Part shown: in pieces, positions 24,330 to 41,312 of the stretch
Layout: the number at the start of each line of letters is the position of its first letter
Position numbering within the stretch: position 1 is the first letter of the stretch
Assembly: GCF_022899935.1 (NCBI RefSeq)
Contig: NZ_JALJCJ010000004.1
Span: 496,001 to 560,000, forward strand
Reading direction: 5' to 3'
DNA: 64,000 bases
DNA from: Shinella curvata
Lineage (GTDB): Bacteria > Pseudomonadota > Alphaproteobacteria > Rhizobiales > Rhizobiaceae
Program-made: the position numbers and the translations under genes
Notes under the pieces: model-generated
Told to the model about the DNA's origin: nothing
Database searches by the model: none
The model's input: the letters and a program-made list of their open reading frames with translations, nothing else

Positions 24330-25832
24330 ATGACGACCCTCAATCCCGCTGAGATGGATGAGATCGCGGCACGCCATCCGGCCGTCTTCCACCGCTCGTT
24401 CTGGCAGCGTTTCCGCGTCGCCATCATCGCCGGCGGCTTCGTGCTCTACGCCCTTTATTGCTGGTGGTTCTTCGCTATCGGCCATGTGCTCGGCACCGCC
24501 AACTGGAACATCGCCGGCACCTATCTCGCCGACTGGGTGTCCTACGAGGTCCGCCCGGAAGTGACGATCGCGCCCGATGGCGCGATGAAGCTCACCTATC
24601 CGCGCTTTTCGCCGCTCGGGCCGAATGCCGAGCCGGACTGGGTGGAAATCGAGCGTGGCACGATGACCCGCACGATGCCGGCCGCGGAAGCTTCGAGCAC
24701 CACGGTCAAGAAGCCAGCCTCCATGGGCTTCATGGGCGAGGGTGCCGTCCTGGGCGGCTCGGCCGCTGCTGCGGAAGGCATGGCGACAGCGACGACACGC
24801 GAGGAGGAGGTGGTCAAACGGGCAAGGATCACGCTCAACTCCTCGACGAGCGTCGAGGTCGTGCCGGATCGTGTGACCGTTGAGCATGCCGGCCAGACGC
24901 TTCTCGTCGCTCTTGATAACGGCGCGATGAAAATCGATGGCGATCTGCCCGCCTGGGCGACGCAGAAAAGGCCGGGAGAGAAAATCACGCTCGCCTTCGG
25001 ATTTGCCGGCTGGGGCGAAATCGAGGCCGGCGACGTCAGCATTCGCAGGCGCTTCCTCGGCTGGGCGAACTTCATCTTCGACACGAACTCGCCGTTCCAC
25101 GGCAAGTCGACGTCGGAGGTCTTTTCGCTGATCGCCTCGGCCGACCGGATCGACCCGAAGCAGTCGAACCTGTCGCTTGCCTGGAACAACATTCTCTATA
25201 ATGCGGAATGGCAGCATCTCGACGTCTGGACCAAACTGCTCCAGACCATCGTCATGGCCTTTGTCGGCACGCTTTTTGCGATGCTGCTCGCCTTCCCGCT
25301 CGCTTTCCTTGCGGCGCGCAACATCACGCGCAACTGGTTCTCCAACCAGATCACCAAGCGTCTGTTTGACTTCCTGCGCTCCGTCGACATGCTGATCTGG
25401 GCGCTGTTCTTCACCCGTGCCTTCGGCCCCGGACCGCTCGCCGGTATCTCGGCGATCTTCTTCACGGATACCGGAACGCTTGGAAAACTCTATTCCGAAG
25501 CGCTTGAAAACATCGACGACAAGCAGCGCGAGGGTGTGAAGTCCGTGGGTGCCGCACCCGTCGCCGTACAGCGCTACGGTGTGCTGCCGCAGGTCATGCC
25601 GCTCTTTGCCTCGCAGGCGCTTTATTTCTGGGAATCGAACACCCGTTCTGCCACGATCATCGGCGCGGTCGGGGCTGGCGGCATCGGCCTCAAACTCTGG
25701 GAAGCGATGCGCACCAATTCGGACTGGGAGAATGTCGCCTATATGGTGCTGTTGATCCTCATCGTCGTCTTCGTCTTCGACGGAATCTCAAATGCGCTTC
25801 GCTCGCGCCTGATGGGCAAGCCGGCGCATTGA
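24330..25832 (+). CDS. phnE: Phosphonate ABC permease PhnE2 (PhoT) with large inserted extracytoplasmic region
   Basis: A 500-residue permease, almost 200 residues longer than ordinary PhnE. After one transmembrane segment (FVLYALYCWWFFAIGHVL, about 33-50) comes a roughly 230-residue hydrophilic, beta-rich region. The permease core then starts near residue 300 (LLQTIVMAFVGTLFAMLLAF). The EAA-type loop REGVKSVGAAPVAVQRYGVLPQVMP and SATIIGAVGAGGIGLKLWEA are intact. It corresponds to PhoT of the rhizobial PhoCDET system. The function of the large insert is not known to me; it would face the periplasm and could contact PhnD. Confidence 0.93.
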   Translation: MTTLNPAEMDEIAARHPAVFHRSFWQRFRVAIIAGGFVLYALYCWWFFAIGHVLGTANWNIAGTYLADWVSYEVRPEVTIAPDGAMKLTYPRFSPLGPNAEPDWVEIERGTMTRTMPAAEASSTTVKKPASMGFMGEGAVLGGSAAAAEGMATATTREEEVVKRARITLNSSTSVEVVPDRVTVEHAGQTLLVALDNGAMKIDGDLPAWATQKRPGEKITLAFGFAGWGEIEAGDVSIRRRFLGWANFIFDTNSPFHGKSTSEVFSLIASADRIDPKQSNLSLAWNNILYNAEWQHLDVWTKLLQTIVMAFVGTLFAMLLAFPLAFLAARNITRNWFSNQITKRLFDFLRSVDMLIWALFFTRAFGPGPLAGISAIFFTDTGTLGKLYSEALENIDDKQREGVKSVGAAPVAVQRYGVLPQVMPLFASQALYFWESNTRSATIIGAVGAGGIGLKLWEAMRTNSDWENVAYMVLLILIVVFVFDGISNALRSRLMGKPAH

Positions 25833-25928
25833 TATCGCCGTGGCGGCATGATGCTGCCACACGAATCCCTTCAAGCTCCGGCGTCGCCCTTCAAGGCGGC
25901 GTCAAACGACTTTTACAGGAATGAGCCC

Positions 25929-26636
25929 TTGCGTTACGCCCTCTACTTCACCCCGTCCGCCAGCGATCCGCTGACCCTTGCCGCGCAGCGCTGGCTGGGC
26001 CGCAACGCCTTTACGGGGGCACGCCTGGAACAGCCGGCCGTGAGCGGTTTCGAAGCCGAGGCGCTTGCGGGCCTGACCGCCGATCCGCGCCGCTATGGTT
26101 TTCACGCCACGCTGAAAGCGCCGTTCTCGCTTGCCGAGGGCCGCAGCGAGGCCGAACTGATCGCCGAGATCGGCCGTTTCGTATCCGAGATCGACCCCTT
26201 CGAGATTCCCGAAGTCGTCGTCGGACGTCTCGGCTCGTTCTTCGCGCTCGTGCCGGGTGATCAGTGCGATCCGCTGCAGGCGTTCGCCGGAGAGGTCGTG
26301 CGTCGCTTCGAACGCTTCCGCGCGCCGCTCAGCTCGGCCGACATCGCGCGCCGAAAGCCGGACGAGTTGACGACGGACGAGCGCCGGAACCTCGTGCAAT
26401 GGGGCTACCCCTACGTGTTCGACGAGTTCCGCTTCCACATGACGCTGACAGGGCGCGTACCGGCGGACCGCCGCGATGCCGTCGAAGGCGTGCTTCACAA
26501 TCAGTTCGCCGAATTCCACGGCAAGGCGCTGCCGGTTTCAGGCCTTGCGCTGTTCCGGGAACCCTCGCGCAGCGCCGACTTCACCGTCCATTCGCTCTTC
26601 CCGCTGGGTGGGGCCGCCAACAGAAAGACCGCCTGA
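25929..26636 (+). CDS. DUF1045 phosphonate-locus protein, 2H phosphoesterase-like
   Basis: A 235-residue protein of the DUF1045 family found in phn operons. Two HxT motifs, H59-A-T61 in YGFHATLKAPF and H170-M-T172 in FRFHMTLTG, are the hallmark of the 2H phosphoesterase superfamily. Start: TTG at 25929 is preferred, since AGGA lies 8 bases upstream and the product then begins MRYALYFTP as is usual. An ATG at 25848 would add 27 residues of unlikely sequence. It lies between phnE2 and phnM, ending 1 base before the phnM ATG. No PhnP-type metallo-phosphodiesterase is present, so this enzyme may hydrolyse the ribosyl 1,2-cyclic phosphate. That is inference. Confidence 0.9.
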   Translation: MRYALYFTPSASDPLTLAAQRWLGRNAFTGARLEQPAVSGFEAEALAGLTADPRRYGFHATLKAPFSLAEGRSEAELIAEIGRFVSEIDPFEIPEVVVGRLGSFFALVPGDQCDPLQAFAGEVVRRFERFRAPLSSADIARRKPDELTTDERRNLVQWGYPYVFDEFRFHMTLTGRVPADRRDAVEGVLHNQFAEFHGKALPVSGLALFREPSRSADFTVHSLFPLGGAANRKTA

Positions 26637-26637
26637 C

Positions 26638-27771
26638 ATGACCCGCGAAACCGTTCTTTCCAATGCCCGCATCGTGCTGGAGGACCAGATCCTCGACGGC
26701 ACGCTGGTGCTGCGCGATGGTCTCATCGCCGATATTTCCGAAGGTTCGTCGGCGGCCGGCGAGGATATGGAAGGCGACTTCCTGATCCCCGGCCTCGTCG
26801 AGCTGCATACCGACCACCTCGAAGCGCACTACTCGCCGCGTCCCGGCGTGCGCTGGGGCCTGACGGCGGCGATCCAGGCGCATGATGCGCAGGTCGTGAC
26901 CTCGGGCATCACCACGGTCTTCGACTGCCTGCGCATGGGCTCGGATGCCGATGGCGGCTTCGAGAAGGGGGAGATGCGGGGTATGGCCGACGCCATCGCA
27001 CAAGCCCAGAACGAGGATCGCCTGCGCGCCGAGCACCTCATCCACCTGCGTTGCGAGGTCTCGACCGACAATGTGCTGGATCACTATGAGGAGTTCGAGG
27101 ACGATGCGCTGGTGCGTCTCGTCTCGCTTATGGACCATGCGCCCGGCCAGCGACAGTTCCAGACGATGGAGCAGTATGTGCTCTACTATCAGAAGAAGCG
27201 TGGCCTTTCGGATGCCGAGTTCGCCGAGTTCTGCAAACGTCAGCAGGATCTCTCCGCCCGCTATGCCAAGCCGCACCGCGACGCCATCGCCGCCTCCTGC
27301 GCGGCCCGAAACATCTCGGTCGCCAGCCACGATGATGCGACGCTCGAGCATGTCGAGGAAGCCATCGGCTACGGCATCCGTCTTGCCGAGTTCCCGACGA
27401 GCGTCGAAGCCGCCAAGGCCTCGCACGGTGCCGGCATGAGTGTCCTGATGGGCGCGCCGAACATCGTGCGCGGCAAGTCCCACTCCGGCAATATCGCCGC
27501 GCGCGATCTCGCCGGGATGGGCGTTCTCGACGTGCTTTCGTCAGACTACGTGCCCTTCAGTCTGATGCATGCGCCCTTCATCCTTGCCGACGAGGGCATG
27601 AACCTTTCCAAGGCGATCGCCATGGTCTCGACCACGCCTGCCCGTACCGTCGGTCTCGATGATCGCGGCGCCATCGCCAGGGGGCTTCGCGCCGATATCG
27701 TGCGCGTGCGTCGCCCTGAGGGCGTGCCGGTCGTGCGCTCGGTCTGGCGGCAAGGCAAGCGGGTGGCATGA
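26638..27771 (+). CDS. phnM: PhnM, alpha-D-ribose 1-methylphosphonate 5-triphosphate diphosphatase
   Basis: A 377-residue amidohydrolase-superfamily enzyme that removes pyrophosphate from the ribosyl phosphonate triphosphate before C-P cleavage. Metal-binding motif ELHTDHLEAH is at residues 55-64, with His57, Asp59, His60 and Glu62. Further motifs are the central ISVASHDDATLEHVEEA and the distal VLSSDYVPFSL. Length matches the family. The gene starts 1 base after the DUF1045 stop and overlaps phnN by 4 bases. Confidence 0.97.
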   Translation: MTRETVLSNARIVLEDQILDGTLVLRDGLIADISEGSSAAGEDMEGDFLIPGLVELHTDHLEAHYSPRPGVRWGLTAAIQAHDAQVVTSGITTVFDCLRMGSDADGGFEKGEMRGMADAIAQAQNEDRLRAEHLIHLRCEVSTDNVLDHYEEFEDDALVRLVSLMDHAPGQRQFQTMEQYVLYYQKKRGLSDAEFAEFCKRQQDLSARYAKPHRDAIAASCAARNISVASHDDATLEHVEEAIGYGIRLAEFPTSVEAAKASHGAGMSVLMGAPNIVRGKSHSGNIAARDLAGMGVLDVLSSDYVPFSLMHAPFILADEGMNLSKAIAMVSTTPARTVGLDDRGAIARGLRADIVRVRRPEGVPVVRSVWRQGKRVA

Positions 27772-28373
27772 GCAAGGCCGGCGATATCGTTGTCACACCA
27801 TCCTTGCCGGTTGCGGCCGGCACGATGGTGGTGGTGGTCGGTCCAAGCGGGGCGGGCAAGGACAGCGTCATGTCCTATGCTGCCCGACAGTTCGACGATG
27901 AGGTGCGGGTGAAATTCGTGCGCCGTATCGTCACCCGCCCGGCGGATGCCGGCGGGGAGGCGCATCAGGCGATCGATGCAGATGGATTCCGCCGCCGCGA
28001 GGCCGCGGGCGGGTTTGCGGTCTCCTGGGATGCCCATGGTCTTTCCTACGGCATTCCGCGCGAAACGCTCGATGATCTTGCTGACGGCGTGACGCTGATT
28101 GCCAATGGCAGCCGCTCCGCGCTGCCGGCTTTTGCTGAAGCCTATGCGAAGCTCGTGGTCGTGCTGATCACCGCGCGCCCGGAAATCCTCGCGGCTCGCC
28201 TTGCCGCACGCGGCCGGGAAAGCGCCGAGGCCATCGCCAAACGCCTCGACCGCACAGTGCCGGAAATCGTGATCGCCGCCGATACCGTTGTCATAGACAA
28301 CAGCGGTGCGCTGGAGGACGCTGGCGAAGCATTCGTCTCGCTGCTTGTCTCGAGACTGTCGCGCGGCAACTAG
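27768..28373 (+). CDS. phnN: PhnN, ribose 1,5-bisphosphate phosphokinase
   Basis: A 201-residue P-loop kinase of the guanylate-kinase-like fold that converts ribose 1,5-bisphosphate to PRPP, the last step of phosphonate salvage. Walker A GPSGAGKD is at residues 25-32. Family blocks RRIVTRPADAGGE and SWDAHGLSYGIP follow, with a lid region RLAARGRES. ATG overlaps the phnM stop. Its TAG stop interlocks with the photolyase stop on the other strand in a CTAG palindrome, closing the phosphonate locus. Confidence 0.96.
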   Translation: MSKAGDIVVTPSLPVAAGTMVVVVGPSGAGKDSVMSYAARQFDDEVRVKFVRRIVTRPADAGGEAHQAIDADGFRRREAAGGFAVSWDAHGLSYGIPRETLDDLADGVTLIANGSRSALPAFAEAYAKLVVVLITARPEILAARLAARGRESAEAIAKRLDRTVPEIVIAADTVVIDNSGALEDAGEAFVSLLVSRLSRGN

Positions 28374-30320: not shown

Positions 30321-31133
30321 ATGTTGGATGACAGCGAATTTACCGGCGACCATGTGTGGTGGATGACCTCGCGCGGGCCATCGCGCATCGTCGGCACTGC
30401 TATCCACAACGGTCACGCCGTCAGGGGAGCGCTTGCCTCGCGGATGGCGCTCGACGGCGACGCGCGACTGCGCGAGGAGGACCCCTTCACGGCCGAAACC
30501 ATCCATGACCTTGCCAACCGCATCGTCTTCCAGCGCTCTCGTTTCGAGATCGATCTCAATCGTGCGCGAGATGCCGCCGTCTATCAGCGGCCGGAGCAGG
30601 CCTGGGGCCTGAATGTCTGGCGTGAACCGCTCTCCGCCACCGAACTGGCCGAGAGCCTTGCATTGCACGATGCTTACTACAGCATGCTGGAGAGTTATCT
30701 GCGCGATGTGGAAGCGCAGTACGGCGCCTTCGTCGTGCTCGACATCCACAGCTACAACCACCGTCGTGGCGGAGCTTCGGGTGCGCCGACGCAGGCGGTC
30801 GAAGCGCCCGATATCAATATCGGCACGATATCCATGGACCGCACCCGCTGGGCGCCCGTCGTCGATACGTTCATGGATTTCTGCGCGGACTATGATTTCC
30901 TTGGGCGTCGGTTGGACGTGCGCGAGAATGTCGCCTTCCAGGGACGCGGCGAGCAGACCCGCTTCATCCATGAGCGGTTCCCGGAAAGCGGCTGTGCTAT
31001 CGCCATCGAGTTCAAGAAGATCTTTATGGACGAATGGACCGGCGTGCCGGACTGGCAGGCGATTTCTGCACTTCGTTCGCTGATCGCCGCCTCGGTGCCG
31101 GTGCTCGAAAGTGCGCTGCGGGAGGTTGCATGA
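30321..31133 (+). CDS. N-formylglutamate amidohydrolase family protein
   Basis: A 270-residue zinc hydrolase of the N-formylglutamate amidohydrolase (HutG/NFGase) family. Visible family elements are RIVGTAIHNGHAVRG near residue 22-36, an LNRARDAAVYQ segment and FVVLDIHSYNHRRGG, which carries likely metal or catalytic His residues. No hut genes are nearby. Instead it is coupled by ATGA overlap to a DUF1704 peptidase and then an ATP-grasp ligase, so it probably acts on an amide or peptide made by that set and not in histidine breakdown. A weak EcfG-like pattern (GGAAC at 30263, CATT at 30284) lies upstream. Confidence 0.88.
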   Translation: MLDDSEFTGDHVWWMTSRGPSRIVGTAIHNGHAVRGALASRMALDGDARLREEDPFTAETIHDLANRIVFQRSRFEIDLNRARDAAVYQRPEQAWGLNVWREPLSATELAESLALHDAYYSMLESYLRDVEAQYGAFVVLDIHSYNHRRGGASGAPTQAVEAPDINIGTISMDRTRWAPVVDTFMDFCADYDFLGRRLDVRENVAFQGRGEQTRFIHERFPESGCAIAIEFKKIFMDEWTGVPDWQAISALRSLIAASVPVLESALREVA

Positions 31134-33022
31134 GCCTAACCAGGGCGGCGCGCAGGCCGCGCGCAAAGAAGGAAAAGAGCCTCGTCGAGGATGTGATCGC
31201 GGCGCTGGAGGCTGGCAAGCCGGTGCGCCGCGAATTCGAGGGCGGACGCTTGCACATCGACCGTCCGCAGCCCTTTCTCTTCCTGCATGTCGGTGATCCC
31301 GAGAAGCATGTGGTGGCGCGCGAGGTGGCAAGCGCCAATGCCTCCCATCTGGTGACAGCAGAGATCGACGATGCCGTCGCGCTGCTCGGGCCGATTGCCG
31401 GTATCCTGCGCAAGGCATTTGGCACGTTCGTGCTTGTCGATATCGACGAGCTGGAGCGCGACCGGTTGCTCTCCGATGACGCTCCCTTTCTCCAGCCGTT
31501 CGAGGTGACCCTTTCGGCGACACGCGGCCTTGCGGCTAACCGGGCGGTAAAAGCCTTCGGTGCGGCGGTAAAGGCTTTCGAGGCGCGATTCCGCACGCCG
31601 CATGTCGATCTTTGCGAGGCGCAGGAAGATCCTTGCGCGCGGCCGGAGCTTCTGAAATTGCGGCTGCCGCTCCTCACCCTGCGGTTTGCCCCGATCTACC
31701 GCGTCACCGGGTCGGATGCGACCTATCCGGATTTGCGCGAACGCCTCGTCGGCAATTTCCTCGATGCGGGTCTGCAGGCCGTCGCCGCCTTTCTCGATGC
31801 GGACGGTTTTCCCAAGCCCGTCACCTACCGCGCCTTCGGCCGCAAGGCTTTTGTCGATGCGGTGGAGCGGGCGGATCGCGGCATGGACGATGTCGCTTCC
31901 AGTTTCGATTTCCTGCTCTGTGTGACGCCGATCAATGCGAACGCTGCGTGGAAAGAGTTCAAGGCAAATCATCACGACAAGCCTCCGCGCTTTCTCTACC
32001 GGCCGTTGAGCCTTCTGGTGGAGCGGGAAAAGCGCCGCCTTTATTCGATTTCGCTCGATCATCTCGAAGACCCCGTCCTGCACCAGATCTATCGTGAAAA
32101 GCAGCAGGAGCTCGACCTCCAGCTCACCCTCATCGGTCATCGGGAAAAAGCCCGTTTCGTCGAGTTCGGCCGTGCGCTCTACGGTCCGGTCGAACCGTCG
32201 CTGCTGAAGGCCGCGCGAGAGGTTCTCGATGGTACGGGAGAGGCAAGCCGCATATCCGCGCTCGCGTCCGATGACGACGTCGTTGACTGCTTTTTTGTCG
32301 AGCACCGTGCCCGGTCGATGATGGCGGATTATCAGCGGCGCCATGAAGGCTTCGATGCATCGATCGAACTTCGCGACGACGTGCCGCCCGGCCTGCTCGT
32401 CTCCGGGCCGCGGCTGCTCATCTCCCGCCGCACACGCATGATGCGCCAGCGCGTCGATGCTCTGCTCAGTCACGAGGTCGGCGTGCATCTTCTGACCTAC
32501 TTCAACGGCTCGGCGCAGGGGCTGCGTGTCTTTCGCACGGGCCTTGCAGGTTACGAGGGCATGCAGGAGGGGCTGGCGGTCTTCGCCGAGTTCCTGGCCG
32601 GCGGTTTCACGCCGGAGCGGCTGCGGCTGCTGGCCGCGCGCGTCATCGGCTGTGATCTCATGCTGTCGGGTGCCTCCTTCGTCGAAAGCTTCCGGCATCT
32701 GACGGATCGCTACGGTTTTGACGCGGAAACCGCCTTCGGCCTGCTGCTGCGCGTCTTCCGAGGAGGAGGGCTTGCGAAGGACGCAATCTATCTGCGCGGG
32801 CTCCTGTCTCTGCTCAGCCATTTCAAGGGCGGGGGGGCGCTCGATCCATTCTGGATGGGCAAGATTTCCGCGGCCGATTTCACCGTGATGGAAGAGCTCG
32901 GTGCGCGTGGCCTTCTGAAGGCGCCGGTCCTGCGGCCCCTTTGTCTTGAAACCGAACGCGGGCGCGCAAGGCTGGAGCGCGCCCGCGACGGCCTCACCCC
33001 CCTTGCCATGCTCGAAGCTTGA
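31130..33022 (+). CDS. DUF1704 (QEGLA-motif, MATCAP-like) putative metallocarboxypeptidase
   Basis: A 630-residue member of the family annotated 'flavohemoglobin expression-modulating QEGLA motif protein', whose DUF1704 domain is shared with eukaryotic tubulin tyrosine carboxypeptidases MATCAP1/2. The zinc motif HEVGVH (HExxxH, residues 448-453) is followed 26 residues later by QEGLA at 479-483, which supplies the third ligand. No signal peptide or membrane segment, so cytoplasmic. The N-terminal 300 residues are uncharacterised. ATG overlaps the amidohydrolase stop, and the gene is followed 11 bases later by an ATP-grasp gene. Carboxypeptidase activity is inferred from the family. Confidence 0.9.
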   Translation: MSLTRAARRPRAKKEKSLVEDVIAALEAGKPVRREFEGGRLHIDRPQPFLFLHVGDPEKHVVAREVASANASHLVTAEIDDAVALLGPIAGILRKAFGTFVLVDIDELERDRLLSDDAPFLQPFEVTLSATRGLAANRAVKAFGAAVKAFEARFRTPHVDLCEAQEDPCARPELLKLRLPLLTLRFAPIYRVTGSDATYPDLRERLVGNFLDAGLQAVAAFLDADGFPKPVTYRAFGRKAFVDAVERADRGMDDVASSFDFLLCVTPINANAAWKEFKANHHDKPPRFLYRPLSLLVEREKRRLYSISLDHLEDPVLHQIYREKQQELDLQLTLIGHREKARFVEFGRALYGPVEPSLLKAAREVLDGTGEASRISALASDDDVVDCFFVEHRARSMMADYQRRHEGFDASIELRDDVPPGLLVSGPRLLISRRTRMMRQRVDALLSHEVGVHLLTYFNGSAQGLRVFRTGLAGYEGMQEGLAVFAEFLAGGFTPERLRLLAARVIGCDLMLSGASFVESFRHLTDRYGFDAETAFGLLLRVFRGGGLAKDAIYLRGLLSLLSHFKGGGALDPFWMGKISAADFTVMEELGARGLLKAPVLRPLCLETERGRARLERARDGLTPLAMLEA

Positions 33023-33033
33023 GGAGAGCAACC

Positions 33034-34080
33034 ATGCGTATCGCCTTTTTCGTCAATTCGATCGAAGACGAGACTCCCACCTTCACCACCACCTCACTTG
33101 CCATGGCCGCGCTCTCGCGAGGGCATGACATCTGCTATCTGACGCCGGGCGACTTCGTGCTCAGGGCGGATGACAGTCTTTCGGTGCGCGGCCGCGTGCT
33201 GCCCGGCAAGCGCTACAAGAAAGCGGAAAGTTTTCACGCCGCCCTCCAGGGCGACGAGGCGACGGTCGAGACCATGGACATCGGCGAGGTCGACGTTTTG
33301 TTCCTGCGCAACGACCCTTCGCTCGACGCCGACGGCCGACCGTGGGCGGCCCATGTCGGAGCAATGTTCGGGCGGTTGGCCGCTGCGCGCGGCACACTCG
33401 TCGTCAACGATCCCGACGGCCTGTCGCTCGCCCAGAACAAGCTCTATTTTCAGGGTTTCCCGCAGGCCGTGCGGCCGCGGACGCTGATTTCCAAGAGCAT
33501 CGATGAAATCCGCGGCTTCATCGATCTGCACAAGGAGGGGGTGATCATGAAGCCGCTGCAGGGGTCCGGCGGCCGGAACGTCTTCAAGATCGGTTCGACA
33601 GGGGAAGCCAATCTGAACCAGATTTTCGAGGCCGTCAGCGGCGAGGGCTACCTGATCGCCCAGAATTACCTGGCGGCTGCGACCGAGGGCGATATCCGCC
33701 TCTTCCTGATGAACGGCCGTCCGTTGGAGAAAGATGGCACCTATGCCGCGATCCGCCGCGTGCCGGCGAAAGGCGAGGTCCGTTCCAACATTCACGCTGC
33801 GGGCACGGCCGTGAAGGTGGAGATCACGCCGGAAATTCTGGCGATCGCCGAGATGGTGCGGCCCAAGCTGGTGGAGGACGGCATGTTTCTCGTCGGCCTC
33901 GACATTGTCGGCGACAAGATCCTGGAAATCAACGTCTTCACGCCCGGCGGGCTGAGCGTGATGCTCGACCTCTATGGCGTGGATTTTTCCGAAAACATCA
34001 TCGTCGCGCTGGAAAGCAAGGTCGCCCAGCGCGACGCCTATGATGGGGCGATCGCCAACAGGATCCTGGCGGCGCTCTGA
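33034..34080 (+). CDS. GshB-like ATP-grasp ligase
   Basis: A 348-residue ATP-grasp enzyme resembling prokaryotic glutathione synthetase. It begins MRIAFFVNSIEDETPTF, a variant of the GshB N-domain. ATP-grasp motifs: EGVIMKPLQGSGGRNVFKI (phosphate-binding loop), YLIAQNYLAAATEGDIRLFL and the metal-binding end DKILEINVFTPGG. SD GAGGAG. Standard GshB sits with gshA or in housekeeping context; here the partners are a peptidase and an amidohydrolase, so it more likely joins an amino acid or small acid to a peptide or protein. The stop directly abuts the stop of the convergent DUF2934 gene (TGATCA). Confidence 0.88.
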   Translation: MRIAFFVNSIEDETPTFTTTSLAMAALSRGHDICYLTPGDFVLRADDSLSVRGRVLPGKRYKKAESFHAALQGDEATVETMDIGEVDVLFLRNDPSLDADGRPWAAHVGAMFGRLAAARGTLVVNDPDGLSLAQNKLYFQGFPQAVRPRTLISKSIDEIRGFIDLHKEGVIMKPLQGSGGRNVFKIGSTGEANLNQIFEAVSGEGYLIAQNYLAAATEGDIRLFLMNGRPLEKDGTYAAIRRVPAKGEVRSNIHAAGTAVKVEITPEILAIAEMVRPKLVEDGMFLVGLDIVGDKILEINVFTPGGLSVMLDLYGVDFSENIIVALESKVAQRDAYDGAIANRILAAL

Positions 34081-35276: not shown

Positions 35277-38195
35277 ATGACTGGCGAATTGATTCTGGTC
35301 CTGCTGGTTTGCCTCCCCTTCGCGGGAAGCCTTGCCGCGACCATTCTCTTGCGGACGGATTCCCGCATTCTTGCTGCGCGCATGTCGGGCGTCGTCTCGT
35401 TTGCCGCACTCCTGCTGACGGCTGCGCTCTATCCCGCCGTGCGCGAAGGCGGCAAGGTTCGGCTCGATCTCGAATGGCTGCCGCAACTCGGCCTGAATGT
35501 CACGCTGCGCATGGATGGATTTGCCTGGCTTTTCGCCATGCTCATCACCGGCATCGGTTGCCTTGTCGTGCTCTATGCTCGCTACTACATGTCGGAAGAG
35601 GATCCGGTACCGCGCTTCTTCTCGTTCCTGCTTGCCTTCATGGGCTCGATGCTCGGTATCGTGCTGTCGGGCAACATCATCCTGCTCTCCGTCTTCTGGG
35701 AGCTGACCAGCATCTTCTCCTTTCTGCTGATCAGCTACTGGCATCACAATGCCGCGGCCCGCGACGGCGCGCGCATGGCGCTGACGATCACCGGTATCGG
35801 CGGTTTCTGCCTGCTGGCCGGTCTGCTCGTGCTCGGCCATATCGTCGGCAGCTACGATCTCGATGTCGTGCTCGCCTCCGGCGACCTGATCAAGGCACAT
35901 CCGCTCTATCTCACGGCGCTCGTGCTCATCCTCATCGGCGCGCTGACCAAGAGCGCGCAGGTGCCATTCCATTTCTGGCTGCCGAACGCCATGGCCGCGC
36001 CGACGCCGGTTTCGGCCTATCTGCATTCCGCCACCATGGTGAAGGCGGGCGTCTTTCTGCTGGTGCGGTTCTGGCCGGCGCTGTCGGGCACCTATGAGTG
36101 GTTCATGCTGGTCGGCATCGCTGGTATCAGTACCCTGCTTCTCGGCGCCTACTTCGCCATGTTCCAGCAGGACCTGAAAGGCCTGCTCGCCTACTCGACG
36201 ATCAGCCATCTCGGCCTCATCACCACGCTGCTCAGCCTTGGCAGTCCCGTCGCTGCGGTCGCTGCGATCTTTCACATGATGAACCACGCCACCTTCAAGG
36301 CTTCGCTCTTCATGGCCGCCGGCATCATCGACCACGAGACCGGCACACGCGACATGCGACGATTGAGCGGGCTGCTCAAATACCTGCCGATAACGGGCAC
36401 GCTTGCCATGGTGGCGAGTGCGGCCATGGCCGGCGTGCCGTTGCTCAACGGCTTCATTTCCAAGGAAATGTTCTTCGCCGAAGCTGTGGAAACGCATGCC
36501 GATTCCGTGCTCGACCGCATCCTGCCCTACGTTGCGACGCTCGCCGGCGCCTTCTCCGTCGCCTATTCTCTGCGCTTCATCCATATGGTGTTTTTCGGCC
36601 CCGAACCTACGGATCTGCCGAAACCGAAGCCGCACGAGCCGCCGCACTGGATGCGTTTCCCCATCGAGTTCCTCGTGCTCGCCTGCCTGGTCGTCGGCAT
36701 CATTCCGAGCCTGTCGATCGGTCCGTTCCTGCACTCGGCGGTCATCTCCGTTCTCGGAGACCGCACTCCGGAATACAGCCTTGCCGTCTGGCATGGCATC
36801 AACACGCCGCTGATCATGAGCCTGATCGCGCTGGTCGGCGGCGCGGCGCTATACTTCGTGATGAAGGACTATCTCGCCAAATGCGACGACGGGCCGCCGC
36901 TTTTCCGGCACCTTGCCGGCCAGCGCATCTTCGAACGTGTCCTCGTCACCGTTTCCTGGAAATGGGCGCGCTGGCTGGAAAGCAATCTCGGGACGCGCCA
37001 TCTTCAGCCGCAGCTTCGCCTCATCGCGGCCGCGGGCTTCCTGGCCGGCGCAGTGTCGCTTTATCTCGCGGGGTTTTCTCCGAAGCCTTTGTCCTTCGGG
37101 GATGTCGATCCGATCTTCGCCGCCGTCTGGTGCATCGGTGCTTTTTGCGCTCTCGGGGCGGCCTATCAGGCAAAGTACCACCGGCTCGCAGCCCTGGTGC
37201 TGCTCGGCGGCGCTGGCATCACCACCTGCATCACCTTCGTCTGGCTCTCGGCGCCCGATCTGGCCATCACGCAGCTCGTCGTGGAAATCGTAACGACGGT
37301 TCTCCTGTTGCTCGGCCTGCGCTGGCTGCCGAAGCGCTCGGAAAAGGTCGACAATTCCGTCTCGTTTGCCGCGCGAAGCCGCCGTTTCCGCGATTTCCTG
37401 CTCGCGATTTCCTGCGGCTTCGGCATGTTCCTGTTCTCCTATGCCATCATGACGCAGCCGGTGCCGGATGCGATTGCGAGCTACTTCCTCGACAAGGCCT
37501 ACACCGAAGGTGGCGGGCGCAACGTCGTCAACGTCATCCTCGTCGATTTCCGCGGCTTCGACACGATGGGCGAGATCGCGGTGCTGGCCATCGTGGCGCT
37601 GACGGTCTTCGCGCTGTTGCGCCGCTTCCGTCCGGCGCCGGACAGTATCGAAAAGCCGGAACAACAACGCATCCAGAACGCGTATGACGCGGAGCGCCCC
37701 GAGCGCTCGGCCGGCGATACGGTCCGCGACTATCTGCTCGTGCCCTCGGTCATCATGCAGTGGATGTTCCCCGTAATCGTAACCTTCTCGGTCTATCTCA
37801 TCATGCGTGGCCACGATCTGCCGGGTGGCGGTTTTGCCGCTGGCATCACAATGGCGATCGCCTTCCTGCTGCAATATCTGGCGGGCGGCGTGCGCTGGGC
37901 GGAGGATCGCCTGCGCATCCTGCCCCTGCGCTGGATGGGTTTCGGCCTGCTGATGTCGGCGGCGACGGGCATGGGAGCCTGGCTGTTGGGCTATCCGTTC
38001 CTGACCACCCATTCGCAATACATAGAGGTGCCGTTCATCGGTAAGGTACCGGCAGCGAGCGCGCTGCTCTTCGATCTGGGTGTCTTCTCGCTCGTCGTCG
38101 GCGCGACGGTGCTGATCCTCATCGCGCTTGCCCACCAGTCCGTACGCATGCATCGGGTTCGCAGTCTCGACGCCCCCAAGGCGGAGGAAGCCTGA
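35277..38195 (+). CDS. phaAB: Mrp/Pha cation-proton antiporter fused subunit A/B
   Basis: A 972-residue polytopic membrane protein. The N-terminal MnhA part resembles NuoL/ND5, with SVFWELTSIFSFLLISYWHHN, FHFWLPNAMAAPTPVSAYLHSAT-type and HMMNHATFKASLFMAAG blocks carrying the conserved Glu/Lys/His. A DUF4040-like region follows near residue 640. The C-terminal 150 residues are MnhB-like (SVYLIMRGHDLPGGGFAAG). Fusion of A and B is the rhizobial PhaAB form, in which the operon supports K+/Na+ efflux and alkaline tolerance. No clear SD; starts ATG 35277. Overlaps phaC by 1 base. Confidence 0.96.
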   Translation: MTGELILVLLVCLPFAGSLAATILLRTDSRILAARMSGVVSFAALLLTAALYPAVREGGKVRLDLEWLPQLGLNVTLRMDGFAWLFAMLITGIGCLVVLYARYYMSEEDPVPRFFSFLLAFMGSMLGIVLSGNIILLSVFWELTSIFSFLLISYWHHNAAARDGARMALTITGIGGFCLLAGLLVLGHIVGSYDLDVVLASGDLIKAHPLYLTALVLILIGALTKSAQVPFHFWLPNAMAAPTPVSAYLHSATMVKAGVFLLVRFWPALSGTYEWFMLVGIAGISTLLLGAYFAMFQQDLKGLLAYSTISHLGLITTLLSLGSPVAAVAAIFHMMNHATFKASLFMAAGIIDHETGTRDMRRLSGLLKYLPITGTLAMVASAAMAGVPLLNGFISKEMFFAEAVETHADSVLDRILPYVATLAGAFSVAYSLRFIHMVFFGPEPTDLPKPKPHEPPHWMRFPIEFLVLACLVVGIIPSLSIGPFLHSAVISVLGDRTPEYSLAVWHGINTPLIMSLIALVGGAALYFVMKDYLAKCDDGPPLFRHLAGQRIFERVLVTVSWKWARWLESNLGTRHLQPQLRLIAAAGFLAGAVSLYLAGFSPKPLSFGDVDPIFAAVWCIGAFCALGAAYQAKYHRLAALVLLGGAGITTCITFVWLSAPDLAITQLVVEIVTTVLLLLGLRWLPKRSEKVDNSVSFAARSRRFRDFLLAISCGFGMFLFSYAIMTQPVPDAIASYFLDKAYTEGGGRNVVNVILVDFRGFDTMGEIAVLAIVALTVFALLRRFRPAPDSIEKPEQQRIQNAYDAERPERSAGDTVRDYLLVPSVIMQWMFPVIVTFSVYLIMRGHDLPGGGFAAGITMAIAFLLQYLAGGVRWAEDRLRILPLRWMGFGLLMSAATGMGAWLLGYPFLTTHSQYIEVPFIGKVPAASALLFDLGVFSLVVGATVLILIALAHQSVRMHRVRSLDAPKAEEA

Positions 38196-38533
38196 TGGAA
38201 CTTGTTCTTGCAATCGGTATCGGCATCATGACCGGCTCGGGCGTCTGGCTCATCCTGCGCCCGCGCACCTATCAGGTCATCATCGGCCTGTCGCTGCTCT
38301 CCTATGCCGTCAATCTCTTCATCTTCGGGGTTGGTGGCGTGAAGTCCAATGCCGCCCCATTGCTGGGTGAAGGCGTTGATGTCTCGACCCTGACGGACCC
38401 CGTGCCGCAGGCGCTGGTCTTGACCGCAATCGTCATCGGATTTGCGACGACGGCACTCTTCCTCGTGGTGCTGCTCGCCGCTCGCGGGCTGACCGGCACG
38501 GACCATGTCGATGGCCGGGAGCAACCGAAATGA
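38195..38533 (+). CDS. phaC: Pha/Mrp antiporter subunit C
   Basis: A 112-residue NuoK-like subunit with three hydrophobic segments (AIGIGIMTGSGVWLIL, IIGLSLLSYAVNLFIF, ALVLTAIVIGFATTALFLVV) and the family sequence DPVPQALVLTAIVIGFA. Its ATG shares the final A of the phaAB TGA stop (TGATG); it overlaps phaD by 4 bases. Confidence 0.96.
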   Translation: MELVLAIGIGIMTGSGVWLILRPRTYQVIIGLSLLSYAVNLFIFGVGGVKSNAAPLLGEGVDVSTLTDPVPQALVLTAIVIGFATTALFLVVLLAARGLTGTDHVDGREQPK

Positions 38534-40161
38534 GCGGCTGGCAGCAACATCTCATCATCGCGCCGATCGTCATTCCGCTGGTCGCAGGCGCGCTTCTCCT
38601 GTTCTTCGACGAGCGTCAGCGCGTCGTCAAAGCCATGATCAGCGTCGTCTCGTCGCTGGCGCTGGCGGCTGTCGCGATCAACCTGTTCCGGCTTGCCAAT
38701 GGCGGCGATTTCGAAGGCGTCTATCTGCTGGGCAACTGGCCGGCCCCCTTTGGCATCGTGCTGGTTGTCGACCGGCTCTCGGCGCTGATGCTGGTGCTCG
38801 CCTCTATCCTCGCCATTCCCGCGCTGGTCTTCGCGCTGGCCCGCTGGCACGCCGCCGGCGCGCATTTCCATTCGCTGTTCCAATTCCTGCTGATGGGGTT
38901 GAACGGGGCCTTCCTGACGGGGGACCTTTTCAATCTTTTCGTCTTCTTCGAGGTGATGCTCGCCGCGTCCTACGGGCTCCTGATGCACGGCTCCGGCCCC
39001 ATGCGCGTCAAGGCGGGATTGCACTACATCGCCGTCAATCTCGCCGCCGCGCTGTGCTTCCTGATCGGCGTCAGCGCGATCTACGGTTCCGCAGGCACGC
39101 TCAATATGGCCGACCTTGCCGTGCGCATCGGCGAGATCGAGGGCGAGCGGCGCATGCTGCTGGAGGCGGGTGCTGCCATTCTCGGCGTCGTCTTCCTCAT
39201 CAAAGCCGGCATGTGGCCGCTGAATTTCTGGCTGCCTGGCGCCTATAGCGCGGCGGTAGCGCCCGTCGCCGGCATCTTCGCCATCATGAGCAAGGTTGGC
39301 ATCTACGTCATCCTGCGTCTGTCGCTCCTCGTCTTCGGACAGGGCGATTCCGCCGGCCTCGGGCTCAATGTCCTGCTCTATGGCGGCATGGCTACAATCG
39401 CCTTTGGTACGATCGGCGTGCTCGCGTCCCAGGCGCTCGGGCGTCTGGCGAGTTACAGCGTGCTCGTGTCGTCCGGTACGTTGCTCGCCGTTCTCGGCCT
39501 CAGCAACGGGGAGGTCACCGCCGGCGCGCTTTTCTACATGGTCAGTTCCACGTTGACGATCGGGGCCTTCTTCATGCTGATCGAGCTCGTCGAGCGCGGT
39601 CAGGATGCCGGCGCCTCGGTTCTCGCCGTCACCATGGAAGCCTATGGCGACGCGGACGAGGAGGAGCAGGAGGTCGAGATCGGTGTGACCATGCCGGGAA
39701 CGATCGCGGTGCTTGGCACCTGCTTTGCCGCCTGCGGCATTCTCTTGTCCGGCCTGCCGCCGCTCTCCGGCTTCGTCGCGAAATTCGCCATGCTGACGGG
39801 CATGATCGGGACCGAAGCGGTGGCCGACCAGCCGATCCCCGCCTCCGTCTGGTGGATCGTCGCTCTGCTCATCCTGTCGGGCCTTGCCGCCTTGATCTCG
39901 ATGACGCGTGCCGGCATCCGCACCTTCTGGGCTTCCATGGAAGGAACGGTGCCACGCGTGCTCGTCATGGAAATGGCGCCCGTCATGCTCCTGATCGCGC
40001 TCACGCTGATGCTGACCATCAAGGCCGGCCCGGCGATGCACTACATGGAAGAGACCGTACGCAACCTGCAGCAGCCCGGCACCTATATCGACGCCGTGAT
40101 CAATGCGCGCCGTGCCGGTGTCGCGGAGGCGAGCGGGCCGGATGGCGGGGGAGGGATCTGA
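38530..40161 (+). CDS. phaD: Pha/Mrp antiporter subunit D
   Basis: A 543-residue NuoM/N-like proton-pumping-type subunit with about 14 membrane segments. Conserved blocks: LFNLFVFFEVMLAASYGLLMHG with the key Glu, FLIKAGMWPLNFWLPGAYS with the key Lys, and GLPPLSGFVAKFAM. A hydrophilic, acidic insert (DADEEEQEVEI) sits near residue 377. Starts by ATGA overlap with phaC and ends 1 base before the phaE ATG. Confidence 0.96.
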   Translation: MSGWQQHLIIAPIVIPLVAGALLLFFDERQRVVKAMISVVSSLALAAVAINLFRLANGGDFEGVYLLGNWPAPFGIVLVVDRLSALMLVLASILAIPALVFALARWHAAGAHFHSLFQFLLMGLNGAFLTGDLFNLFVFFEVMLAASYGLLMHGSGPMRVKAGLHYIAVNLAAALCFLIGVSAIYGSAGTLNMADLAVRIGEIEGERRMLLEAGAAILGVVFLIKAGMWPLNFWLPGAYSAAVAPVAGIFAIMSKVGIYVILRLSLLVFGQGDSAGLGLNVLLYGGMATIAFGTIGVLASQALGRLASYSVLVSSGTLLAVLGLSNGEVTAGALFYMVSSTLTIGAFFMLIELVERGQDAGASVLAVTMEAYGDADEEEQEVEIGVTMPGTIAVLGTCFAACGILLSGLPPLSGFVAKFAMLTGMIGTEAVADQPIPASVWWIVALLILSGLAALISMTRAGIRTFWASMEGTVPRVLVMEMAPVMLLIALTLMLTIKAGPAMHYMEETVRNLQQPGTYIDAVINARRAGVAEASGPDGGGGI

Positions 40162-40162
40162 C

Positions 40163-40639
40163 ATGCTGCCCTATCCGCTGCTCAGCGCCTCGCTCCTCCT
40201 CATGTGGCTCGCCCTCAACGGCTTTACGCTCGGCCATCTCATTCTCGGCAGTATCGTCGCGGTCTTCGCCTCATGGGGCATGGCCTCGCTGCGTCCGGTC
40301 AAGCCGCGCATGCCGAAATGGTATCTGTTGCCGAAACTCGTCGCCATTGTGCTCTACGATATCGTGCGCTCGAACATTGCGGTCGCCTCGATCCTGGTGG
40401 CGGGACGGGGACGGCGTTTCCGGTCGGGCTTCATCACCGTGCCGCTCGACCTGCAGAACCCGACGGCGCTCGCGGTGCTGGCCGTCGTGGTGACGAGCAC
40501 GCCGGGCACCGCGTGGCTTGAATACAATTCGCTCAGCCGGACCGTGCTGATCCACGTTCTCGATCTCGTCGACGAGGCGGAATGGCAGACCCTGATCAAG
40601 GGGCGCTACGAGGCGCTGCTGATGGAGATTTTCGAATGA
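40163..40639 (+). CDS. phaE: Pha/Mrp antiporter subunit E
   Basis: A 158-residue MnhE-family membrane subunit. Two N-terminal hydrophobic segments (SASLLLMWLALNGF, LILGSIVAVFASWGMASL) are followed by a cytoplasmic domain with TSTPGTAWLEYN and HVLDLVDEAEW, both typical. ATG at 40163 has GGAGGGA upstream. Overlaps phaF by 4 bases. Confidence 0.95.
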   Translation: MLPYPLLSASLLLMWLALNGFTLGHLILGSIVAVFASWGMASLRPVKPRMPKWYLLPKLVAIVLYDIVRSNIAVASILVAGRGRRFRSGFITVPLDLQNPTALAVLAVVVTSTPGTAWLEYNSLSRTVLIHVLDLVDEAEWQTLIKGRYEALLMEIFE

Positions 40640-40917
40640 GCCAGACGATCCTCTCCTGGTCCATGGTGTTCGCGCAGGTGTGCCTGGTCGCCGCCATGGC
40701 GCTTGCCGCGTTGCGCATGTCGCGGGGCCCCCGTGCGCAGGACCGTGTCCTTGCGCTCGACACGCTCTATGTGAACTCGATGCTGCTGCTGATGGTCTTC
40801 GGTATCCGCACCGGCAAGGTCATCTATTTCGAGGCGTCGCTCGTCATCGGCATGCTCGGCTTTGTTGCCACCGTGGCGCTTGCCAAATTTCTGATGCGCG
40901 GCGAGGTGATCGAATGA
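40636..40917 (+). CDS. phaF: Pha/Mrp antiporter subunit F
   Basis: A 93-residue MnhF subunit, three membrane segments, with the family sequence RGPRAQDRVLALDTLYVN and GKVIYFEASLVIGMLGFVATVALAK. Coupled by 4-base overlaps to both phaE and phaG. Confidence 0.95.
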   Translation: MSQTILSWSMVFAQVCLVAAMALAALRMSRGPRAQDRVLALDTLYVNSMLLLMVFGIRTGKVIYFEASLVIGMLGFVATVALAKFLMRGEVIE

Positions 40918-41312
40918 GCACGATCGAGCATGCAGGCGACCTGCCGGATTGGGCGGCGCTTGCCGTTTCCTTCTTCCTGGTCATCGGCGCGGGCCTGACG
41001 CTGATCGGTACGATCGGCTTTGTCCGTCTGCCGACGTTCTATGAGCGCATCCACGCGCCGACGCTCGGCACGAGCTGGGGCACGGGCGGCATCGTCATGG
41101 CCTCGATGATCTTCTTCACGGTTCTGTCCACGAGGCCCGTCGTTCACGAGATTTTGATCGGTATTTTTGTGACCGTAACGACGCCGGTGACGCTGATGCT
41201 GCTTGCCCGTGCGACCTTGCACCGGGACCGAGCTGAAGGAAATCCGGGTGTTCCGGCTGAAGAGCCGGTGGAAGCAGGGAACCGGGAGGGCGCGGCAACC
41301 AGGGCGGATTGA
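40914..41312 (+). CDS. phaG: Pha/Mrp antiporter subunit G
   Basis: A 132-residue MnhG subunit with three membrane segments and the signature GTIGFVRLPTFYERIHAPTLG followed by GTGGIVMASM. The last about 30 residues are hydrophilic (EGNPGVPAEEPVEAGNREG). Last gene of the seven-subunit, six-gene antiporter operon. No clear terminator was seen before the next gene, 127 bases on. Confidence 0.95.
   Translation: MSTIEHAGDLPDWAALAVSFFLVIGAGLTLIGTIGFVRLPTFYERIHAPTLGTSWGTGGIVMASMIFFTVLSTRPVVHEILIGIFVTVTTPVTLMLLARATLHRDRAEGNPGVPAEEPVEAGNREGAATRAD

Follow-up and report, generated by a model that had tools for sequence, protein, structure and literature searches.

The subject of this work is a set of three adjacent genes, here called A, B and C, in a 64,000-nucleotide stretch of the Shinella curvata genome (contig NZ_JALJCJ010000004.1, positions 496,001 to 560,000; this whole stretch is referred to as the window). 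A belongs to the FGase family of metal amidohydrolases, B combines an FGase-like region with a MATCAP-type metallopeptidase domain, and C is a GshB/RimK-type ATP-grasp ligase. The three genes form a genuine unit whose members stay close together, in a distribution that is sparse but broad. We infer its physiological role and substrate; the explanation that we favour, tentatively, is that the enzymes of the cassette build and shorten a peptide-like compound with amide bonds, which would help cells adapt to ionic or hypo-osmotic conditions.

Genome contigs were scanned with an alignment of B proteins; this gave at least 559 relatives, from which the best 80 by likeness to the window B were kept. 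All three genes are present in 77 of these 80 loci, in the order A-B-C on one strand in 75; A is found in 78 and C in 79. The exceptions have B and C (L115 and L134, the contig of the latter starting at B) or B and A (L139). About a dozen phyla are spanned by the kept loci: 47 are labelled Hyphomicrobiales (Rhizobiales), and the others come from Bacteroidota, Planctomycetota, Gemmatimonadota, Acidobacteriota, Calditrichota, Poribacteria, Campylobacterota, Verrucomicrobiota and others, with many metagenome-assembled genomes (MAGs) among them. In 75 loci, the first aligned B residue lies a median of 35 bases past the A stop codon, and the first aligned C residue a median of 9 bases past the B stop codon. 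Pairwise distances of A, B and C correlate at 0.82–0.87 among 24 non-rhizobial loci, a comparison that leaves out eight loci (L106, L111, L113, L119, L122, L131, L133 and L135) and in which species descent is uncontrolled.

As the 80 loci had been ranked by likeness to the window B, drawn genome samples were added. In the sample from the window's class (387 genomes), C occurs in 3 at E at most 1e-90 and DUF1704 in 8; a long B directly adjoins C in all three genomes that have it, and the five remaining B genes are short or broken. A phylum sample of 397 genomes has DUF1704 in 53, mostly in a short form, and 14 long-form loci taken from it comprise six A-B fusions with an adjacent C, five A+B+C sets, two B+C pairs and one B alone. 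None of 12 short DUF1704 genes has A or C nearby within stretches of 16.5–17 kb, and linkage as a general trait of DUF1704 genes was therefore rejected. The first-pass annotation, made from this one sequence, had described the three genes as an operon and looked to their recurrence in other genomes, which is borne out by both the 80 loci and the class sample. In the class sample the genes are linked wherever C occurs; they are rare there (3 of 387 genomes) but scattered over many phyla. No fourth gene recurs across phyla among 2,157 neighbouring open reading frames (ORFs), a comparison that covered ORFs of at least 80 aa. Thus, the set appears to have no dedicated substrate protein of that size.

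Features of the window locus, together with ion-channel genes from related loci that are considered below, are given in Table 1.

Table 1. Coordinates of the A-B-C genes and motifs in the window and of MscS and MgtE genes at related loci.
Feature	Position	Strand	Description
Gene A	30321..31133	+	FGase-family (PF05013) metal amidohydrolase, 270 aa
Gene B	31130..33022	+	FGase-like domain (~15–235) and DUF1704/MATCAP metallopeptidase domain (~249–616), 630 aa
Gene C	33034..34080	+	GshB/RimK-type ATP-grasp carboxylate-amine ligase, 348 aa
B residues 15–235	31172..31834	+	Predicted FGase-like fold, apparently without catalytic residues
HEVGVH, B residues 448–453	32471..32488	+	Predicted metal-binding and catalytic motif
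QEGLA, B residues 479–483	32564..32578	+	E480, likely third metal ligand
MgtE	L121:5767-7161		Between B and C
MscS	L118:10149-11906		4-base overlap with the last C
MscS	L045:9001-9525		After A-B, 20-base gap
MgtE	L130:7969-8634		After C, 23-base gap

In Pfam searches, A matches PF05013 (FGase) with 82.7 bits (cut-off 28.9), B matches PF08014 (MATCAP) with 292.4 bits (cut-off 27), and C matches PF02955 with 170.5 bits (cut-off 23) and PF02951 with 47.1 bits (cut-off 21.3). The three families named in the first-pass annotation are thus upheld well above the cut-offs, and its gene positions, its HExxxH and QEGLA motifs, the 4-base overlap (the A stop codon and the B start codon share ATGA) and the 11-base spacer between B and C (33023-33033) are all as it gave them. 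The family scores and the conservation of the set across phyla exclude chance. B also passes the NCBIfam model TIGR02421, "flavohemoglobin expression-modulating QEGLA motif protein" (348.3 bits, cut-off 338.65), in which the named function is a label only; a Pontibacter B (L109) falls under the cut-off at 320.8 bits. A matches no NCBIfam model. Since no obvious N-terminal signal peptide is seen by eye in the sequences of A, B and C, the trio is probably cytoplasmic. None of the three proteins matches a PADLOC defence model, and a role in anti-phage defence was rejected on this ground.

In the MATCAP half of B, H448, E449, H453 and E480 are identical in all 41 aligned B proteins, as are Q479, G481 and A483. 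In the accessible text on TMCP1/MATCAP, an EEG motif is described as providing a putative third ligand (PMC10499314), which E480 of the QEGLA motif likely matches. The predicted model of B (predicted local distance difference test, pLDDT, 90.0) has human MATCAP chains as its five best Foldseek matches (target template modelling score 0.71–0.72, best E 1.5e-8), in accord with the MATCAP relationship proposed at first pass. From sequence and model, B is best read as a putative carboxypeptidase-type metallopeptidase with an intact MATCAP half.

The first 235 residues of split-form B, i.e. B encoded apart from A, have no Pfam match. Alignment of profiles of B fronts (41 sequences) and A proteins (31 sequences) by hhalign gave a probability of 88% (E 3e-6, 108 columns), with control values of 0.1% for the MATCAP half against A and 0.5% for the B front against C; an earlier comparison with only 7 B-front sequences was weak (65%). 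The models of the B front and of A have the same order of strands and helices as judged by eye, without superposition. At the strands matched in this way the residues invariant in A, including H29, H143 and E230, are lost, and the position matched to H143 is W, G, D or another residue. That the B front is a decayed FGase fold, a dead domain, is supported but not proven by these comparisons. I read this domain as one that would hold A or replace a lost partner.

In other lineages A and B occur as a single FGase-MATCAP protein of ~660 residues (L045, L048–L051, L055, two Photobacterium replicons and one Vibrio plasmid). C adjoins the fusion in all six fused loci of the phylum sample and in the two Photobacterium replicons, and the form with fused A-B and C is found in other Proteobacteria. 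Upstream of the fused gene in L045, on the other strand, lies a RimK-like ligase gene (L045:4745-5653).

H29, H143 and E230 are identical in all 31 aligned A proteins and are candidate catalytic residues, and a conserved pocket is formed by R49/R51-EED, S73-R74, D78 and N80-R81. The predicted model of A (pLDDT 93.1) matches best the folds of the solved N-formylglutamate amidohydrolase 2q7s and of Atu2144 (2odf), and A is only 15–17% identical to solved N-formylglutamate amidohydrolases. No histidine-use genes are named beside A, its named neighbours in the window being photolyase, phosphonate, DUF2934 and antiporter genes; the first-pass statement that the context is not that of histidine catabolism therefore stands.

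C belongs to the PRK12458 subfamily (NF009110, 472.5 bits, cut-off 408). The window protein fails both glutathione synthase equivalogs (TIGR01380, 193.2 bits against 299.05; NF003573, 207.3 against 272) and the RimK family TIGR00768 (68.2 bits, cut-off 143.4). K136, K173, D290 and N300 are invariant and E298 nearly so among 39 aligned C proteins. The tree of C proteins places the split form in one clade and the fused form in another. An extra C subfamily of ~343 residues, encoded directly after B, forms its own clade with a support of 100 in the Shimodaira-Hasegawa-like approximate likelihood ratio test (SH-aLRT). Two or three C genes lie near each other in L110, L118 and L129, and in L129 B is repeated as well.

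The ionic part of the proposal comes from expression data and from neighbouring genes. According to the portion of PMC10308900 that was available, an RNA-seq table shows two chromosome II genes of Photobacterium damselae as raised in low salinity, 38.42-fold for A0J47_RS17020 ("glutathione synthase GshB") and 27.51-fold for A0J47_RS17025 ("QEGLA motif protein"). In two other strains of Photobacterium, C and then fused A-B are found on the large second replicon. In genome G202 the fused protein is 63% identical to that of a Vibrio plasmid, and a stronger GshB is encoded on contig 1, with C and A-B on contig 2. Given this layout, the induced P. damselae pair is very probably C and fused A-B. The same data set lists a RimK-named gene as raised 52-fold (PMC10308900), which may encode an RloC-like ATP-grasp protein. 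Survival of Pseudomonas aeruginosa under hypo-osmotic conditions requires the retropepsin-like RloA peptidases, and RloA mutants are rescued when either RloB or the ATP-grasp protein RloC is lost, as stated in the accessible sections of PMC12239564. The Photobacterium induction and the RloABC parallels make the ionic reading more than guesswork.

Among 92 neighbours hand-picked from 25 non-rhizobial loci, a selection of the ORFs there, Pfam identified 5 MscS, 3 CorA, 2 MgtE and 2 TrkA-C proteins, 6 LysR regulators and 4 sigma-54 activators. In comparison with whole-genome counts in 30 genomes, the flanks contain 8 MscS genes against 0.26 expected and 4 CorA genes against 0.07 expected. An MscS, CorA or MgtE gene was found by phmmer in 14 of 94 long-form loci, L057 and L058 sharing one genome. 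The four genes in Table 1 lie inside the cassette or directly after it, in different phyla, so that the layout is sometimes like that of an operon. The L118 fragment has no Pfam match, as the stretch ends before most of the MscS beta-domain, and a whole-genome search shows MscS and CorA adjoining. These neighbours suggest that outside the rhizobia the cassette may have an ionic or hypo-osmotic role.

In the mechanism that we propose, C would activate with ATP a carboxylate on a small peptide-type acceptor and join it to an amine, as is typical of its family; the amine substrate is probably an amino acid. B would take off a C-terminal residue, and A would hydrolyse a second amide bond in the same compound. 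A may dock on the decayed FGase domain of B or may once have been paired with it, and this would account for the fusion of A and B in other lineages. The extra C genes of some loci would make the product longer or more diverse, and in an alternative form of the same scheme the final acceptor would be a protein. A metabolite is tentatively favoured because C is nearest to GshB, A belongs to a family whose name refers to a small N-acyl amino acid, duplication of C would suit chain lengthening, and no fourth gene of at least 80 aa recurs as a target. A broader proposal, possible but held with more doubt, is that the cassette is an undescribed response, widespread in bacteria, that serves when salt or magnesium is lost from the surroundings. 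A cytoplasmic peptide or mark would be built by between one and three GshB-like ligases and trimmed by the MATCAP and FGase enzymes, which a pseudo-enzyme domain would hold together, and MscS, CorA and MgtE would act with them.

Several observations count against these proposals. L052 has B with neither A nor C within 17 kb, and Vibrio sp. HDW18 has fused A-B with no C in the 12 kb covered. The fused FGase of L045 is without its DIHS histidine, so that the activity of A is not always needed; this loss (L045:6998-8980) represents decay separate from that of split B. As regards the decayed domain, the Foldseek search with whole B ranks an FGase only 41st (E 0.07). The enrichment of MscS and CorA was tested only after it had been noticed, and the phmmer scan found no MscS, CorA or MgtE gene at the 48 rhizobial or the 8 Pontibacter loci; hence, the channel link need not hold for the window. 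Finally, the P. damselae pair was assigned from the gene order of other strains.

The first-pass annotation had proposed, as one option, reversible tagging of protein C-termini. In this scheme C would add an amino acid, B would remove it, much as MATCAP takes the terminal tyrosine from tubulin, and the tag would be edited or recycled by A. From sequence and model, B is predicted to share its fold and metal site with MATCAP, TMCP1/MATCAP is reported as a carboxypeptidase of protein tails (PMC10499314, in part), and the available text of PMC12239564 describes RimK as placing glutamates on the C-terminus of a ribosomal protein and as encoded with, and regulated by, the peptidase RimB. These parallels keep tagging in consideration as an unlikely but substantial alternative. 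Set against it are the closeness of C to GshB, the lack of a conserved fourth gene of at least 80 aa that could encode a target, and a family name for A that refers to a small N-acyl amino acid. The acceptor of GshB is a dipeptide, which also speaks against tagging. Making and trimming of a small peptide fits the findings as well as C-terminal tagging does, or better. An improbable alternative is that C serves as a second glutathione synthetase, or makes an analogue from gamma-glutamylcysteine, with A and B in turnover. C can be aligned over 312 residues with 1gsa, a chain of glutathione synthetase (E 3e-36), the two fused-type C proteins tested pass NF003573 alone, at 280 and 277 bits (cut-off 272), and two genomes (G006 and G037) have a strong GCS2 gene with no GSH-S_ATP match above 47 bits besides the C of the trio. 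Against this, the window C lies under both equivalogs, and a separate GshB (226–275 bits) is encoded in 11 of 25 trio genomes, including that of S. curvata, where it lies on another contig and scores better than C (243 against 172 bits). GCS2 is matched in 16 of the 25 genomes (in two at only ~1e-5) and Glu_cys_ligase in 3; neither family is matched in 6 (G398, G399, G400, G409, G411 and G412), which include MAGs of unestimated completeness. A search for the eukaryote-type glutathione synthetase (PF03917) gave no match anywhere, controls included, and is hence uninformative. The separate gshB and the six genomes without either gamma-glutamylcysteine ligase family agree with the first-pass view that the context is not one of glutathione synthesis, and on these grounds C is more than a plain glutathione synthetase.

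A pathway for a ribosomally synthesised and post-translationally modified peptide of the graspetide type, in which C cross-links a precursor peptide that B or A matures, is very improbable. The part of a graspetide survey that was available places in its branches 7 and 8 loci with an ATP-grasp protein and a peptidase but no detectable precursor (PMC8939145), and our comparison of ORFs of at least 80 aa leaves room for a small one. Yet C is GshB-like and scores no more than 20.4 bits against TIGR04187, a model of ATP-grasp maturases with a cut-off of 350, the short intergenic distances leave little space for a precursor, and the one transporter cluster that recurs widely around the trio (23 loci) consists of assorted ABC genes. 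Least probable of all is scavenging, in which A and B would degrade N-acyl peptides as nutrients, with C as a bystander: the first two are hydrolases and are fused in some lineages, but C is linked as tightly as A (79 and 78 of 80 loci) and its distances co-vary with theirs.

Other genes of the window were considered as possible parts of the system. A Mrp/Pha-type monovalent cation/H+ antiporter cluster (35277-41309) begins 1.2 kb past C, beyond a DUF2934 gene on the opposite strand. It is kept in the close relative L148 and does not follow the trio of Sinorhizobium meliloti (L146), and its inclusion in the cassette is unsupported. L148 (NZ_CP084753) is a plasmid labelled Roseateles sp. XES5 (UNVERIFIED_ORG) with the gene order of the window, from phn through photolyase and trio to antiporter; its B is 81% identical to the window B, and its source is perhaps a rhizobium. 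The region that holds the trio can be carried by a large plasmid. Upstream of the photolyase are genes of phosphonate type (transporter permease, DUF1045, amidohydrolase and PhnN; 24330-28373), and no sign of a link between them and the trio was seen in the window.

The FGase-like domain of B, the A-B fusions, the duplicated C genes and the ion-channel neighbours are new relative to the first-pass annotation. No paper on the A-B-C gene set was found among the matches listed in literature searches, which did not extend to the 2009 amidoligase survey by Iyer and others, the likeliest place for an earlier mention. For the DUF1704/QEGLA family, the papers found besides PMC10308900 are, by their titles, genome comparisons for Vibrio vulnificus (PMC3091676) and malaria (PMC3245289). 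A search for low-salinity Vibrio transcriptomes with glutathione synthase gave nothing beyond PMC10308900 and an oyster paper, and one with S. meliloti locus tags presumed to lie near the trio gave no match. The genes are annotated as "glutathione synthase", "N-formylglutamate amidohydrolase" and "flavohemoglobin expression-modulating" protein, which hides the unit and probably led one expression study to assign C to glutathione metabolism (PMC10308900, as far as accessible). If the broader proposal is true, the low-salt-induced Photobacterium "glutathione synthase" is not about glutathione, and the MATCAP/ligase pairing of tubulin has an ancient bacterial counterpart in osmotic control. As the trio is present on pSymB of the model bacterium S. 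meliloti (strain 1021, NC_003078, about 1122942-1126743), its function can readily be tested.

Ligase-peptidase pairs that write and erase amino acids are already known for tubulin and for RimK/RimB; the trio joins a MATCAP peptidase with a ligase and with another amide hydrolase, in a single operon found in about a dozen phyla. A shares family and fold with HutG-type N-formylglutamate amidohydrolase but differs in its additional invariant arginine-rich pocket, its linkage to a MATCAP protein and a ligase, and a setting without histidine-use genes. Like GshB, C is a two-domain ligase with the conserved lysines and metal-site residues, whereas it scores below the equivalog cut-offs, falls in its own clade, is linked to A and B, and occurs where no glutamate-cysteine ligase was found. 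In eukaryotes, the ATP-grasp ligase TTL opposes the MATCAP tubulin carboxypeptidases, and in the trio, too, an ATP-grasp ligase belongs to the same biology as a MATCAP protein. B has the PF08014 family, the fold and the HExxxH...EG metal site in common with MATCAP1/MATCAP2 (TMCP1/TMCP2) and differs from them in its decayed FGase-like domain; C is GshB-like rather than demonstrably TTL-like, and the trio has no tubulin link. RimK/RimB of Pseudomonas and the RloABC operon resemble the trio in that an ATP-grasp protein is encoded with a peptidase. C is closer to GshB than to RimK, and the RimB and RloA peptidases are retropepsin-like aspartic enzymes, RloA being secreted, in systems without an FGase, whereas B is a predicted metallopeptidase. 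The hypo-osmotic setting of RloABC, as described in the available part of PMC12239564, nevertheless resembles that proposed here for the trio.

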